48,260 nucleotides of DNA from an uncultured Oscillospiraceae bacterium (GTDB lineage Bacteria > Bacillota > Clostridia > Oscillospirales > Oscillospiraceae): the NCBI GenBank assembly GCA_905236515.1, contig CAJOQP010000120.1, positions 1 through 48,260 on the forward strand, read 5' to 3'. Positions 3,352 to 42,750 of the stretch are shown piece after piece. Below the pieces are notes generated by a model, which saw only the letters and a list, made by a program, of their open reading frames with translations, had not been told where the DNA came from and did not search any database. Within the stretch, counting starts at the first letter, position 1. The number at the start of each line of letters is the position of its first letter. The translations under genes and the position numbers were made by a program.

Positions 3352-6170
3352 AAGAAAACATTGAAGTAAAAGGTGCTCGCACCAATAATCTGAATAACGT
3401 GAGTGTCACCATTCCGAGAGATAAACTGGTAGTCATGACCGGACTGTCCGGTTCGGGCAAATCCAGCCTGGCATTTGATACGATCTATGCGGAAGGGCAG
3501 AGAAGATATGTGGAATCTCTCAGTTCCTATGCACGACAGTTTCTCGGTCAGATGGACAAGCCGGATGTGGATTATATCGAGGGACTGTCTCCAGCAATCT
3601 CTATTGATCAGAAGACGACTTCCCGAAATCCCAGATCTACGGTCGGTACCGTTACGGAGATCTACGATTATCTGCGTCTTCTTTGGGCTCGGATTGGAGT
3701 GCCGCACTGTCCTAACTGCGGAAAGGAAATCAAAAAGCAGACGATCGATCAGATCGTGGATCAGATCATGTCATACCCGGAACGGACCAGAATCCAGATT
3801 CTTTCTCCTGTTGTCCGCGCAAAAAAAGGAGAACATGTTAAGATCTTTGAAGATGCTCAGCGTTCCGGATATGTACGTGTTCGTGTGGACGGCATCATTT
3901 ATGATCTGTCGGAAGAGATCAAGCTGGAAAAGAACAAAAAGCACAGCATTGAGATCGTAGTGGATCGTCTGGTGATAAAACCTGATATCGTACGCCGTCT
4001 GACAGACAGCATAGAGACCGCGGTATCGCTATCGGACAATCTGGTTATTATCAATATCCTGGATGAAGACCGTGATGTGCTGTATTCTCAGAATTTTGCC
4101 TGCGAAGACTGTGGGATCTCCATTGAAGAGCTAGCTCCCAGAAGTTTTTCTTTCAACAATCCGTTCGGCGCCTGTCCTAAATGTTCCGGTCTTGGTGTTC
4201 AGATGCTGATCGATCCAGCACTGATCGTTCCGGATGAAGACAAATCCATTCAGGATGGCGCGATCACTGCAACCGGATGGAGCAACATGAAGGATGACAG
4301 CATCGCGAAAATGTATTTTGATGCCATGAGCAAGAAGTATCATTTTCGACTGGATGCTCCTTTTCGTTCATTAAGCAAGGACGTTCGCAAAATCATTTTT
4401 TACGGCACCGGAGAAGAGAATCTTGAGCTGAAATTTGACGGAAGAAGAGGAACCGGTGTTCTTCATCAGCCCTTTGAGGGGATCGTCAATAATATGGAAC
4501 GAAGATATCGCGAATCCACCAGTGAATCTGTGAGATCTGATATCGAAGACTGTATGTCTCCCATCCCTTGCCCCGAATGCGATGGACGACGGCTGAAAAA
4601 GGAGATACTTGCAGTCACTGTAGGAGATCTGAACATATCCCAGTTTTCGGATTACTCCGTCAATGACGCACTGGAGTTCATGAAACATCTTTCCCTTAGT
4701 GAACGGGATCAGATCATTGCTAAGCAGATCCTGAAGGAAATCATCAACCGTCTGCAGTTTCTATCCAGTGTCGGGCTCGGCTATCTGAATCTTTCCCGTG
4801 CCGCAGGAACTCTGTCAGGAGGGGAGAGTCAGCGGATTCGGCTGGCGACCCAGATCGGTTCCAGTCTTATGGGCGTGCTGTATATTCTGGATGAACCCAG
4901 TATCGGTCTTCATCAGCGTGACAATGCCAAACTGCTTGCCACATTAAAACAGCTACGGGATATTGGTAATTCTCTGATCGTGGTCGAACACGATGAAGAA
5001 ACGATGCGGGAAGCTGATTATATCGTGGATATTGGGCCTGGAGCAGGAATACATGGTGGTAATATTGTCGCAGCAGGCACAGTGGATGATATCTGCAATT
5101 GCAAGGAGAGTGTGACAGGACAGTATCTTTCCGGAGCTAAATATGTTCCGGTGCCTTCCCAGCGGAGAACCGGCAATGGAAAAACAATCCGTGTGATTGG
5201 CGCGCAGGAAAACAATCTAAAGAACATCGATGTGGAATTTCCACTGGGCACATTCATTTGTGTTACCGGCGTTTCCGGAAGCGGAAAGTCCTCCCTGGTC
5301 AATGAGATCCTTTATAAGACACTGGGCGCAAAGAAAAACCATATGAAACTGCGCCCGGGCAAATATGATCGAATGGAAGGGCTTGAATATGTGGATAAAG
5401 TCATTGCGATCGATCAGAGCCCCATCGGACGCTCACCGCGTTCAAATCCTGCGACTTATACCGGACTGTTTAATGATATTCGGGATCTTTTTGCCAATTC
5501 CAATGATGCGAAACTCCGTGGATATGACGCCGGTCGGTTTTCCTTCAATGTAAAAGGCGGTCGCTGTGAAGCCTGTTCTGGAGACGGTTTGGTCAAGATC
5601 GAAATGAACTTCCTTTCCGATGTTTACGTTCCATGCGAAGTCTGCGGAGGAAAACGCTACAACCGCGAGACTCTGGAAGTCCGTTATAAAGGAAAGAACA
5701 TCGCAGATGTATTGGATATGACGGTGGAGGAGGCATTGTCCTTCTTTGAGAATCATACCAAGATCCGTAATCGGCTTCAGGTCATTTTTGATGTCGGACT
5801 CGGTTATATCAAATTGGGGCAGTCCAGTACGACCCTATCCGGAGGCGAAGCGCAGCGCATTAAACTTGCAACGGAACTGTCCAAGAAATCTACCGGATCT
5901 ACGGTATATATTCTGGACGAACCGACTACCGGTCTTCATGCTGCAGATGTCCATCGCCTTATCAACATTCTTGGGAGGCTTGCTGATGCCGGCAACACGG
6001 TAGTCGTGATCGAGCATAACCTGGATGTTATCAAAACAGCGGACAGTATAATCGATCTCGGACCGGAAGGCGGAGACGGCGGCGGTGAACTGGTCTTTAC
6101 CGGAACTCCGGAAGAATGTGCAAAATGTGAAACCAGTTTTACCGGTCAGTTTTTGAAGAAAATTCTTTGA
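3348..6170 (+). CDS. uvrA: Excinuclease ABC subunit A
   Basis: The damage-recognition ATPase of nucleotide excision repair, 940 residues, the usual full length. The first ATPase half has Walker [10 protein letters not shown] near residue 32, a zinc module starting CPNCGKE, a second Cys set CEDCG...CPKCSG, and the ABC signature [14 protein letters not shown]. The second half repeats this with GVSGSGKSS, zinc module CEACSGDG...[10 protein letters not shown] and [14 protein letters not shown]. UvrA dimers hand damaged DNA to UvrB, and uvrB is not in the window. It overlaps ybaK by four bases and is followed 17 bases later by recD2. No frameshift or missing motif was seen. Confidence 0.98.
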
Positions 6171-26417: not shown

Positions 26418-28256
26418 ATGGATTCTCGTCTGGAACGAATACTGATGCAGGTAGAAAAGCCTGCCCGTTATACTGGTGGCGAAGTAAACCAGATCATAAA
26501 GAATAAAGACAATATTGATCTTCGAGTAGCTTTCTGCTTTCCTGATACCTATGAGATCGGAATGTCCAATCTCGGAATGAGTATTCTCTATCACACGATG
26601 AACAGTTTGGATTACGTTTGGTGTGAACGGGTATTTGCACCTTGGGGTGACATGGCAAAAGCTATGACTGATGCACAGATACCTTTATATGCGTTGGAAA
26701 GCGGAGATCCCATCAGTGACTTTGATGTGCTTGCTTTTTCCATCGGATATGAGATGGCTTATACTACGGTTTTGGATATGCTCTCCATGGCTCATTTGCC
26801 GCTGCGAAGCAAAGAGCGAAACGATTTGACTCCACTGGTCATCGCCGGAGGAAGCGCTTGTGTAAATGCCGAACCAATTGCAGATTTTATCGATCTTGCC
26901 ATTATAGGGGAAGGGGAAGAAGTCAACAATGAACTGCTTGCGCTTCTTCATCAGGCAAAGGCATCGGGGTGGTCCAAGGATCAGTTTCTCCGTAGCGCAT
27001 CGGATATCCAGGGAATCTATGTTCCAGGTCTTTATGAGCCGGTCTACCGTGATGATGGACTTATTGATCACATTGAACCAAAAGACGGTACTGTATATCC
27101 CGTGAAAAAACGCATCATTCAGGATCTTGATCATGTGGATTTTCCGGTGGAACCTGTAATTCCGACAACGGAAATTGTTCAGGACCGTGTCAGTCTTGAA
27201 CTGTTTCGCGGATGTGTCCGCGGTTGTCGATTCTGTCAGGCTGGGTATATTTATCGTCCGATTCGAATGAAACAATCAGACCGGCTGGTGGAACAGGGGA
27301 AAGAACTGCTGGAAAATACCGGCTATCAGGATTGCACTCTTCTTTCTCTCAGCACCAGCGATTATCGTGAATTGATGCCTCTTCTTAACGGCCTGCTCGA
27401 GTACTGCGAACCGAAGAGCATCGGCTTGTCTCTTCCATCACTTCGGGCAGATAATTTTTCAATGGATATCATGGATCGCATTCAAAGAGTACGAAAAAGC
27501 GGCCTGACCTTTGCCGTTGAGGGCGGCAGTCAGCGTCTTCGCGACGCAATCAATAAGAATGTTACGGAAGAGGATCTGTTAAACACATGTAAGATCGCAT
27601 TTTCCGGCGGATGGAACACAGTAAAGCTTTACTATATGCTGGGACTTCCTACGGAGACGGATGAGGATATTCTCGGTATTGCTCAGATGGCCAATGCCGT
27701 TCTGCACTGTTGGAGAGAAAATGCTAAAAACAAAAACAGAGGTGTAAAAATCACCATTTCCACATCTTGTTTCATCCCTAAGCCGTTTTCTCCTTTCCAG
27801 TGGGAACAGCAGATCTCTATGGATGAGTACCGACGCAGAGTGAATCTTCTGAAAAATTCGATTACTGCCAAAAATGTTACTTACAAATGGCATGATCCAG
27901 AGACAAGCTTCATTGAAGCTGTCCTTTCCCGAGGCGATCGCAGGCTTGCAGATGTCCTGGAATATGTGTGGAAGCATGGAGGACGCCTGGAGGCATGGGA
28001 AGACTATTTCAATTACGATCTGTGGATGGAAGCCTTTTCTCAGTTTGGTATCGATCCTTCCTTCTATGCTAACCGTGAGCGCACTTTTGAAGAGACGCTT
28101 CCTTGGGATGTGATTGATGTAGGTGTATTCAAGAAGCACTTGTGGAATGAGCGTGAAATGTGCTATCAGTCCACATTATCTCCGGACTGCAGGAAACAGT
28201 GCAGTGCGTGCGGCGCTGCTCGCCTGTTGAAGAAAGGGTGTGTCTGCGATAGTTAA
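26418..28256 (+). CDS. TIGR03960-type radical SAM protein with B12-binding-like N-terminus
   Basis: A 612-residue protein that fits the TIGR03960 radical SAM family of unknown function. The N-terminal 180 residues resemble a B12-binding Rossmann fold (CFPDTYEIGMSNLGM, FSIGYEMAYT, IIGEGEE) but show no DxHxxG cobalamin motif. The radical SAM cluster Cys are C266, C270 and C273 in GCVRGCRFCQAG. The C-terminus adds another Cys group (CRKQCSACGA and GCVC). The track start at 26403 is a TTG next to the GAGG site; the ATG at 26418 is better. The next gene, DUF2344, overlaps it, as is common for this pair, often near ribosomal protein genes. Confidence 0.9.
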   Translation: MDSRLERILMQVEKPARYTGGEVNQIIKNKDNIDLRVAFCFPDTYEIGMSNLGMSILYHTMNSLDYVWCERVFAPWGDMAKAMTDAQIPLYALESGDPISDFDVLAFSIGYEMAYTTVLDMLSMAHLPLRSKERNDLTPLVIAGGSACVNAEPIADFIDLAIIGEGEEVNNELLALLHQAKASGWSKDQFLRSASDIQGIYVPGLYEPVYRDDGLIDHIEPKDGTVYPVKKRIIQDLDHVDFPVEPVIPTTEIVQDRVSLELFRGCVRGCRFCQAGYIYRPIRMKQSDRLVEQGKELLENTGYQDCTLLSLSTSDYRELMPLLNGLLEYCEPKSIGLSLPSLRADNFSMDIMDRIQRVRKSGLTFAVEGGSQRLRDAINKNVTEEDLLNTCKIAFSGGWNTVKLYYMLGLPTETDEDILGIAQMANAVLHCWRENAKNKNRGVKITISTSCFIPKPFSPFQWEQQISMDEYRRRVNLLKNSITAKNVTYKWHDPETSFIEAVLSRGDRRLADVLEYVWKHGGRLEAWEDYFNYDLWMEAFSQFGIDPSFYANRERTFEETLPWDVIDVGVFKKHLWNEREMCYQSTLSPDCRKQCSACGAARLLKKGCVCDS

Positions 28257-40479: not shown

Positions 40480-41175
40480 GTGACACCTATCAATACAGTT
40501 CAGACTATATGGAACGGTTTAAACTGGAACTATCTCTTGGAAATGATCTTTGGCGTCATTCCGGCGCTTCTTTGCATCACGCTGCATGAACTGAGCCATG
40601 GTGCAGTCGCGTATTCTCTGGGAGATGATACCGCCAAACGGCAGGGAAGACTGACATTAAATCCCATTCGCCATATTGATATAATGGGTCTTTTAATGAT
40701 GGTGTTCTTCCGTTTCGGCTGGGCAAAACCGGTTCCCGTCAATATGAATCGTTTTAAGAACCCGAAAAAGGGAATGGCCATAACGGCGCTGGCTGGTCCC
40801 GTTTCCAACGTGATCATTGCAATCGTTTTTCTTTTTCTTTATGGTTTTTTCTTTCCGATTCTCAATGGCAAGAGCGAGATCGCAGGGATTGTTTTAGACA
40901 TGCTGCAGATTACGGCATATATGAGCCTTGGTTTTGCTGTGTTTAATATTCTTCCCATTCCGCCGCTGGATGGTTCCAAGGTGCTTTTTTCCTTGATGTC
41001 GGATGAACAATACCGCACCTTGATGCGTTATGAGCGGTACGGCATGATGATTTTGCTTCTTCTGGTTGCATCCGGACTGCTTGGACGTCCGTTGTCATCT
41101 GCCACTCAGTATTTGCTGAATAAACTGTTTTTCCTTGCGGAATCCGGATATCAATTATCGTTGAGGTTGTTTTAA
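40480..41175 (+). CDS. Site-2-type membrane metalloprotease, peptidase M50
   Basis: An integral membrane zinc protease of about 229-232 residues with roughly five hydrophobic segments. The zinc motif is HELSHGAVAYSLGDDTAKRQGRLTLNP, with both His and the Glu in place, and the second motif is LPIPPLDGSKVL. RFGWAKPVPVN is typical of the short, PDZ-less M50 group. The target is unknown. The start is uncertain: GTG at 40480 lies in the GGAAGGTG site, and the in-frame ATC at 40489 has the best spacing. It overlaps scpA by one base (TAATG). Confidence 0.9.
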   Translation: MTPINTVQTIWNGLNWNYLLEMIFGVIPALLCITLHELSHGAVAYSLGDDTAKRQGRLTLNPIRHIDIMGLLMMVFFRFGWAKPVPVNMNRFKNPKKGMAITALAGPVSNVIIAIVFLFLYGFFFPILNGKSEIAGIVLDMLQITAYMSLGFAVFNILPIPPLDGSKVLFSLMSDEQYRTLMRYERYGMMILLLLVASGLLGRPLSSATQYLLNKLFFLAESGYQLSLRLF

Positions 41176-41966
41176 TGGAAGATCTTACATACCATCTAGA
41201 AGGTATACTGAAAACTAAAGATGATATTCAGGATTTTGAAGGTCCTCTGACTCTGATTCTCATGCTGCTGCAGAAGAACAAGATCGAAATCCGTGATATC
41301 GTGATCTCAGATATTCTGGATCAGTATACAGATTATCTTAACCAGATGGAAAAGATGGATCTGGAGATCGCAAGCGAGTTTGTTCAGATGGCGGCTTATT
41401 TGCTGTACATCAAAACAAAAATGCTCCTTACGGAAGAGAAGGAAGTTACTGAATTGGAGCTTCTGATCCAGTCTCTGGAACAGATGAAAGCCAAAGACAT
41501 TCAAAATACCTTGCAGCAGATCGTCCCCGAGATCAAAGAACGGTACGATCGGGGTGTGCTATATTTCTCAAAACAGCCGGAACCGATCAAAATCGGAAAT
41601 CGGCAGTACGAATATCATCATGAAAGCGTTGACCTGCTGTCCTCCATCCTGGATGTATTTACCCGTGGAAGCAGCACGCCTGCGATTCAGTCCATTACTG
41701 ATGCGGCACCTAAATATACACCATATGGTGTTCGGGAGAAGAGCAAGGAACTCATTACAAAGCTGAAAAGCAGCAAACATGTTAATCTGAATACGCTTTA
41801 TTCCGATTGTTCCACCAAATCCGAAGTTGTAGCAACATTTATTTCCGTATTGGAACTGTGCAGTATGGGGAGTCTTCTGGTCACCAGAGATGATAATGAG
41901 GAATACATCCTGACTTTTGTCGGCGGAAATATAGACAGCATCTTGGACAAGATCGAGATTGAATAA
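41175..41966 (+). CDS. scpA: Segregation and condensation protein A
   Basis: The kleisin subunit of the bacterial SMC condensin, 263 residues. The N-terminal half has LEGILKTKDDIQDFEGPLTLILMLLQKNKIEIRDI and SEFVQMAAYLLYIKTKMLL, typical of ScpA; the C-terminus is a winged helix that binds the SMC head. smc is not in the window. GAGG lies ten bases before the ATG. Confidence 0.96.
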   Translation: MEDLTYHLEGILKTKDDIQDFEGPLTLILMLLQKNKIEIRDIVISDILDQYTDYLNQMEKMDLEIASEFVQMAAYLLYIKTKMLLTEEKEVTELELLIQSLEQMKAKDIQNTLQQIVPEIKERYDRGVLYFSKQPEPIKIGNRQYEYHHESVDLLSSILDVFTRGSSTPAIQSITDAAPKYTPYGVREKSKELITKLKSSKHVNLNTLYSDCSTKSEVVATFISVLELCSMGSLLVTRDDNEEYILTFVGGNIDSILDKIEIE

Positions 41967-41980
41967 TTGAAGCATGAAGA

Positions 41981-42019
41981 AGGAGGATAACGGAAATCCT
42001 TTCTGTTACACATAGAATG
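41981..42019 (+). promoter_or_regulatory. Split ribosome binding site of scpB folded by a hairpin
   Basis: AGGAGG (41981-41986) is 30 bases before the scpB ATG, far too distant. Between them TAACGGAAA and TTTCTGTTA (41988-42008) can form a 9-bp stem with a UCC loop and one G-U pair. Folding it leaves about nine unpaired bases between AGGAGG and the ATG, the normal spacing. Confidence 0.65.
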
Positions 42020-42718
42020 AACGAGTTATTACAGGAAAAAATAGAGGCGATATTATTTGCCGCAGGGGATACGGTTCGGATCGACAGGATTTCGCTGATT
42101 TTGGGAGTGGATCCCAGCGATATTATCGAGGCATCCGAAAAGCTTTCGGAGATGTACGAAGCCGGGAATCGCGGAATACGGATCGTACGTATCGGTGACA
42201 AACTGCAGATGGTTTCCAACCCGGATTTCGCATCCGATATCATTAAAGTTTTGGAACACCGCAAACCTCCCAGACTCTCTGCTCCGGCACTGGAGACATT
42301 ATCCATCGTTGCATATTATCAGCCGGTTACTCGTGCATATATCGACCAGATTCGAGGTGTGGACAGTTCCTACACGGTCAGTGTTCTGATGGATAAGGGT
42401 CTGATTGACAAACAGGGATATCTGAATGTGCCCGGCCGTCCAGCACTTTATGGAACTACGGATCTTTTTCTTCGCACAATGGGTATTACAAATCTGGATG
42501 AATTACCGGAGCTTCCTGATGTCAGCACATCAGAGGGTGTTCTGAAACTTCAGGAGCAGATCGAACAGATCAAAGAAAATCAGCAGATAGAAGGCCAGTT
42601 GAGTCTGTACGATTCCGCAGAACATGAAGAACCCGGAGAAGAACATAAACCGGAGGAAGAAAACGAAGGAACCATCAATACTGTCAGCGAACAGGAAGAA
42701 ACGAGAGAGGAATCCTGA
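42017..42718 (+). CDS. scpB: Segregation and condensation protein B
   Basis: The winged-helix partner of ScpA in condensin, 233 residues. It starts near KIEAILFAAGDTVR, with LSAPALETLSIVAYYQPVTRAYID and GVDSSYTVSVLMDKGLI as the usual ScpB core, and ends in an acidic tail of about 40 residues. An in-frame ATC at 41996 lies nine bases after AGGAGG and would be an alternative start, adding seven residues. I prefer the ATG because of the hairpin. Confidence 0.94.
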   Translation: MNELLQEKIEAILFAAGDTVRIDRISLILGVDPSDIIEASEKLSEMYEAGNRGIRIVRIGDKLQMVSNPDFASDIIKVLEHRKPPRLSAPALETLSIVAYYQPVTRAYIDQIRGVDSSYTVSVLMDKGLIDKQGYLNVPGRPALYGTTDLFLRTMGITNLDELPELPDVSTSEGVLKLQEQIEQIKENQQIEGQLSLYDSAEHEEPGEEHKPEEENEGTINTVSEQEETREES

Positions 42719-42750
42719 TTTAGAATATTTATCGTACAGTAGGGTTTGAT

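Follow-up and report, generated by a model that had tools for sequence, protein, structure and literature searches.

A candidate hairpin-bridged ribosome binding site at scpB and similar layouts at other genes of an uncultured Oscillospiraceae bacterium

Known split initiation sites and the scpB leader

Structure-bridged translation initiation is usually cited from two genes of phage T4. In gene 38, RNA structure shortens the distance between Shine-Dalgarno sequence (SD) and AUG from 22 to 5 nt, while in gene 25 an intercistronic hairpin shortens the spacing from 27 to 11 nt (PMC3014915). Destabilising mutations reduce initiation at both genes; the arrangement at gene 25 is additionally supported by lacZ fusions and DMS probing, and its structure is conserved only in close T-even phages (PMC3014915).

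The locus described here is located in a window of 48,260 nt, the whole stretch of DNA that was analysed, which represents contig 120 of the fragmented 1.84-Mb genome (219 contigs) of an uncultured Oscillospiraceae bacterium. It was compared with one close relative, genome G002, whose ScpB is 89% identical. The features of the locus, given in window coordinates, are as follows:

41175..41966, forward strand: scpA, an open reading frame with a Pfam SMC_ScpA match (E 3e-15), whose TAA stop lies 50 nt 5' of the scpB ATG
41980..41986, forward strand: SD AAGGAGG (AGGAGG at 41981-41986), seen in the sequence 30 nt 5' of the ATG; identical in G002
41988..41996, forward strand: 5' arm TAACGGAAA of the putative bridging hairpin, from the fold; two changes in G002, pairing kept in both
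41997..41999, forward strand: hairpin loop TCC, from the sequence; ACC in G002
42000..42008, forward strand: 3' arm TTTCTGTTA of the putative bridging hairpin, from sequence and fold; identical in G002
42009..42016, forward strand: tail CACATAGA of 8 nt from hairpin to start codon, from the sequence; identical in G002
42017..42718, forward strand: scpB coding sequence with ATG start at 42017-42019, an open reading frame with a Pfam SMC_ScpB match (E 3.5e-49) from residue 8

A sequence-only reading of the window had pointed out a perfect AGGAGG 30 nt before the scpB ATG with no other ribosome binding site nearby, as well as a 9-bp stem with one G·U pair in the gap, which on folding takes out 21 nt and leaves nine. 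Coordinates and counts of both statements proved right on recounting. No SD-like match of at least 5 nt is present at normal distance from the scpB ATG, and excision of the 21-nt hairpin from the linear gap of 30 nt leaves A41987 plus the tail, giving an effective spacing of 9 nt. Several features of starts of the T4 gene 38/25 type are found at scpB as well, namely a strong SD that is linearly too distant with none closer, a stable hairpin between SD and AUG leaving a normal effective distance, and, with G002, conservation of the structure in a close relative.

The two T4 genes had also been named as precedents for scpB, and this comparison is correct (PMC3014915). The same analysis applied to T4 gene 38 returns the arrangement seen at scpB: in both genes AAGGAG is directly followed by a small hairpin, a short tail and ATG. 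Gene 38, however, is a phage gene with a UUCG hairpin, whereas scpB is chromosomal and has a 9-bp, A+U-richer stem with a 3-nt loop. With gene 25, scpB has in common an intercistronic hairpin which would shorten the spacing and which is absent outside close relatives. In contrast, gene 25 belongs to a phage and carries a weaker SD (GAGG), while several genes of one bacterial genome are concerned here. A further point of reference is thrS of E. coli, whose hairpin is positioned 5' of the domain comprising SD and AUG rather than separating the two, and belongs to an autoregulatory operator. At this split ribosome binding site, the ribosome accommodates a folded hairpin inside its binding region (PMC3936740), as is proposed for scpB.

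Conservation and folding of the scpB hairpin

The scpB leader of G002 comprises AAGGAGG, a 30-nt gap containing GTAGCAGAAA-ACC-TTTCTGTTAC and an identical tail, and scpA stops at the same codon, there TGA. Only four differences to the window are present, two of them in the stem, one adding a tenth pair and one in the loop. Both stem changes preserve pairing, since one converts A-U into G·U and the other G·U into A-U. The folding energy of the gap amounts to -10.8 kcal/mol in G002 versus -6.3 kcal/mol in the window's genome, and random mutants with four changes match the G002 value in 0.5% of trials.

The expectation that the stem is kept in relatives was borne out for G002, with its SD, gap length, stem and two pairing-preserving changes, and failed outside this pair. 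The GTDB genus is represented by a third genome, G001 (ScpB 45%), in which scpA continues into scpB and no AGGAGG is found at the site. At this G001 locus (L013 near 1501), where scpA extends past the scpB ATG, the upstream bases include GAAAC-GAG-GTTTC. The split layout is absent from all inspected scpB leaders of other genera, and the loci sampled in other genera of the family have ordinary SD spacing or gene overlap. Judged by these leaders, the scpB stem belongs to the two-species pair and not to scpB generally.

The gap was folded with an RNA program, as had been suggested. The 31-nt segment, the edges of which were chosen, folds with -8.0 kcal/mol (z -3.26; one shuffle in 200 does as well), and the 81-nt context fold is unremarkable (z -1.07). 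Mononucleotide shuffles of the gap yield a bridging stem of at least 9 bp in 0.125% of cases, and the hairpin reaches a predicted mean pairing probability of 0.71-0.74 in context. The scpB AUG of the window's genome is predicted to be mostly paired with nearby bases, its probability of being unpaired being 0.06 compared to 0.71 in G002. Compared with these chance-fold statistics, conservation in G002 and recurrence at other genes are the stronger arguments. An intrinsic terminator or attenuator, i.e., a hairpin followed by a U run, is not found at scpB, as can be seen from the tail CACATAGA, and the hairpin tails of folD, the aroE-type fusion, glnS and the lipase gene (see below) contain no run of at least 4 T.

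Recurrence of the layout at other genes

Within the 987 kb surveyed, corresponding to 54% of the window's genome, the layout AAGGAG, 0-3 nt, hairpin, 8-11 nt, ATG recurs at five further genes:

L231:1715: folD, 15-bp stem; SD, hairpin and ATG conserved in G002
L136:15348: chorismate mutase-shikimate dehydrogenase-shikimate kinase fusion (aroE-type), 9-bp stem; SD, hairpin and ATG conserved in G002
L157:255: glnS (tRNA-synt_1c), 6-bp stem; SD, hairpin and ATG conserved in G002
L129, minus strand, ATG at locus position 4038: SLH-domain GDSL lipase gene; SD, hairpin and ATG conserved in G002
L152:1936 or 1945 (region 1890-1950): topoisomerase gene, 11-bp hairpin directly adjoining AAGGAGGT

Four of these five loci were found in G002, and the arrangement is conserved in all four. 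The topoisomerase locus, at which two ATGs in the same frame follow the hairpin at 2 and 11 nt, gave no match in G001 or G002. In glnS of G002, altered and inserted loop bases lengthen the stem by a G-C pair, and the tail is one base shorter. Considering all loci, pairing survives about seven stem changes in G002 and is lost in three, each of them at a helix end. For the four loci without length change, random mutation would preserve the stem energies less well than is observed in G002 (Fisher P = 5.6e-4). This pattern of changes is consistent with selection and is not proof by covariation; covariation is limited, with changes mostly one-sided or to G·U, because the layout occurs in two species only.

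For the hairpins at five loci, mean formation probabilities of 0.67-1.0 are predicted, and the effective spacings, 7-13 nt across loci, overlap with the range in which direct SDs peak (7-9). The start codons of the genes with this layout match those of their homologues. In other genera, the genes related to folD and glnS mostly carry an ordinary SD a few bases 5' of the ATG, so that the pattern looks as if a hairpin had been inserted between SD and AUG in the lineage of the window's genome and G002.

Genes for the survey were called with a simple, home-made codon model under two gene-calling schemes. Under the strict geometry, which was fixed after examples had been seen, 17 ATG starts that lack a direct SD are preceded by a hairpin whose end is 7-11 nt away, and six of the 17 carry AAGGAG 0-3 nt 5' of this hairpin, while 300 permuted motifs gave a mean of 0.21 and a maximum of 2. 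Likewise, the layout is over-represented among genes having only a distant SD, six of which are bridged out of 16-19, with 1.2-1.4 expected from dinucleotide-preserving shuffles (P ~1e-6). When the real hairpin density is used instead (7% of the 30-nt stretches 5' of SDs contain a hairpin), the bridging P becomes 0.0016-0.005; this value is more cautious, since shuffles underestimate how often hairpins occur upstream of genes. A loose survey (SD of at least 5 nt plus any structure) revealed no enrichment, with 89 genes versus a decoy mean of 113, and when no gene filter was applied the enrichment was not clear, with 13 versus a decoy mean of 7.8 for decoys that are somewhat rarer; both looser surveys are dominated by false starts. 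In 703 kb of other genera, one of 31 distant-SD genes is bridged with 0.58 expected, compared to 6/19 here (Fisher P = 0.009). A 50-kb control from E. coli contained no distant-SD genes.

Two additional sites passed the shuffle surveys. The one on the minus strand of L120 at 2046 was set aside, having an effective spacing of 14 nt and probably lying inside coding sequence, and the one at L119 3586 was left out of the gene list. A third site, L138:2160-2225, displays AAGGAG, a 13-bp hairpin and GGTGGGAGAACTT-ATG and was set aside on account of a weaker near SD, GGTGGGAG, by the ATG at 2225.

Interpretation and alternative explanations

The scpB element is probably a hairpin-accommodated (split) ribosome binding site of a kind used at several genes of one lineage. 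The earlier proposal of a hairpin-bridged site thereby gains support from the SD, gap and stem kept in G002 and from the recurrence of the layout at other genes. Here, AAGGAGG would pair with the 3' end of 16S rRNA, and the hairpin, adjoining the SD on its 3' side, would keep its fold on the 30S subunit and stand away from the mRNA path at the platform. Because the hairpin would stay folded on 30S, the path from SD to AUG would measure about 9 instead of 30 nt, making initiation at AUG 42017 possible, and this codon would reach the P site as with an ordinary short spacer (7-13 nt across loci). We infer that in the cell the hairpin forms, that the ribosome accommodates it and that translation depends on it. 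The earlier suggestions that it might tune ScpB output against ScpA, or make it temperature-sensitive, are conjectural. The lineage of the window's genome and G002 would reuse the same layout at folD, the aroE-type fusion, glnS, the SLH lipase gene and, probably, the topoisomerase gene.

Rather unlikely, in our estimation, is the hairpin being a regulatory site through which a protein, a small RNA or temperature acts on initiation, with SD-AUG bridging as its mechanism or side effect. A common response is conceivable, because several genes share the SD-hairpin-AUG order, and their loops are short and often pyrimidine-rich. Their stems differ, however, and no stem or loop sequence is held in common, as a specific binder would need; moreover, scpB, folD, the aroE fusion, glnS and the lipase gene have no obvious functional link, and a search of 41150-42750 against the covariance models of Rfam 15 gave no match up to E = 1.

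It is likewise improbable that the arrangement is a coincidence, the hairpin being neutral and ribosomes reaching scpB through coupling to scpA, through reinitiation after it or by a route that needs no SD. The end of scpA 50 nt upstream, the scpA-scpB coupling by overlap in many family members and the unremarkable 81-nt fold would fit such a situation. Reinitiation over 50 nt is far, though, the conserved strong SD of scpB would be useless without bridging, and the layout recurs above chance and is retained in G002.

Initiation at the in-frame ATC 41996, which lies at normal distance from the SD (9 nt 3' of AGGAGG) and had been put forward as the start that would speak against the hairpin, is very hard to credit, as is a 13-codon leader ORF MKKEDNGNPFCYT (41974-42015), an open frame with its stop 1 nt 5' of the scpB ATG, handing ribosomes to scpB: in G002 the ATC is AAC and the leader ATG (41974) is ATA, and both alternatives are therefore weak. 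Furthermore, the first in-frame gap codons change non-synonymously in G002, the leader frame changes amino acids there and lacks a good SD of its own, and ScpB homologues from the family, whose genes overlap with scpA or follow it after a short gap, start at the position equivalent to ATG 42017 and not at the ATC.

The split ribosome binding site invokes a mechanism already known from phage T4. Within the open-access literature searched, the presence of several conserved cases on one bacterial chromosome is new, and no further report of split or hairpin-bridged sites beyond T4 was found. If true, a set of at least five conserved cases among ordinary cellular genes would mean that bridging can be used in place of linear SD spacing on chromosomes. 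These genes would then be natural test cases for the amount of folded RNA that the 30S platform can take up between SD and AUG, and gene finders scoring linear spacing alone would be blind to hairpin-bridged starts. Further reaching, and doubtful at present, is the idea that hairpin-bridged SDs are recurrent in this lineage (~10 genes per genome, by extrapolation) and co-regulated, with stem stability, depending on temperature, ions, a helicase or an initiation factor, setting translation.

A separate observation concerns denA of phage T4 (L299, NC_000866.4 110000-159900, minus strand, locus 27928-27958), which has AAGGAG[TGGGCCGCAAGGCCCA]TTTTATT-ATG upstream. In T4, denA is annotated to start at a GTG that overlaps the SD, while in the relatives (L300-L302) the annotation begins at the ATG; these relatives keep a hairpin, altered by paired changes, between the ATG and a weaker SD. 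Judging from the sequences, denA is possibly a third hairpin-bridged start of T4, or the hairpin is the nrdB terminator.
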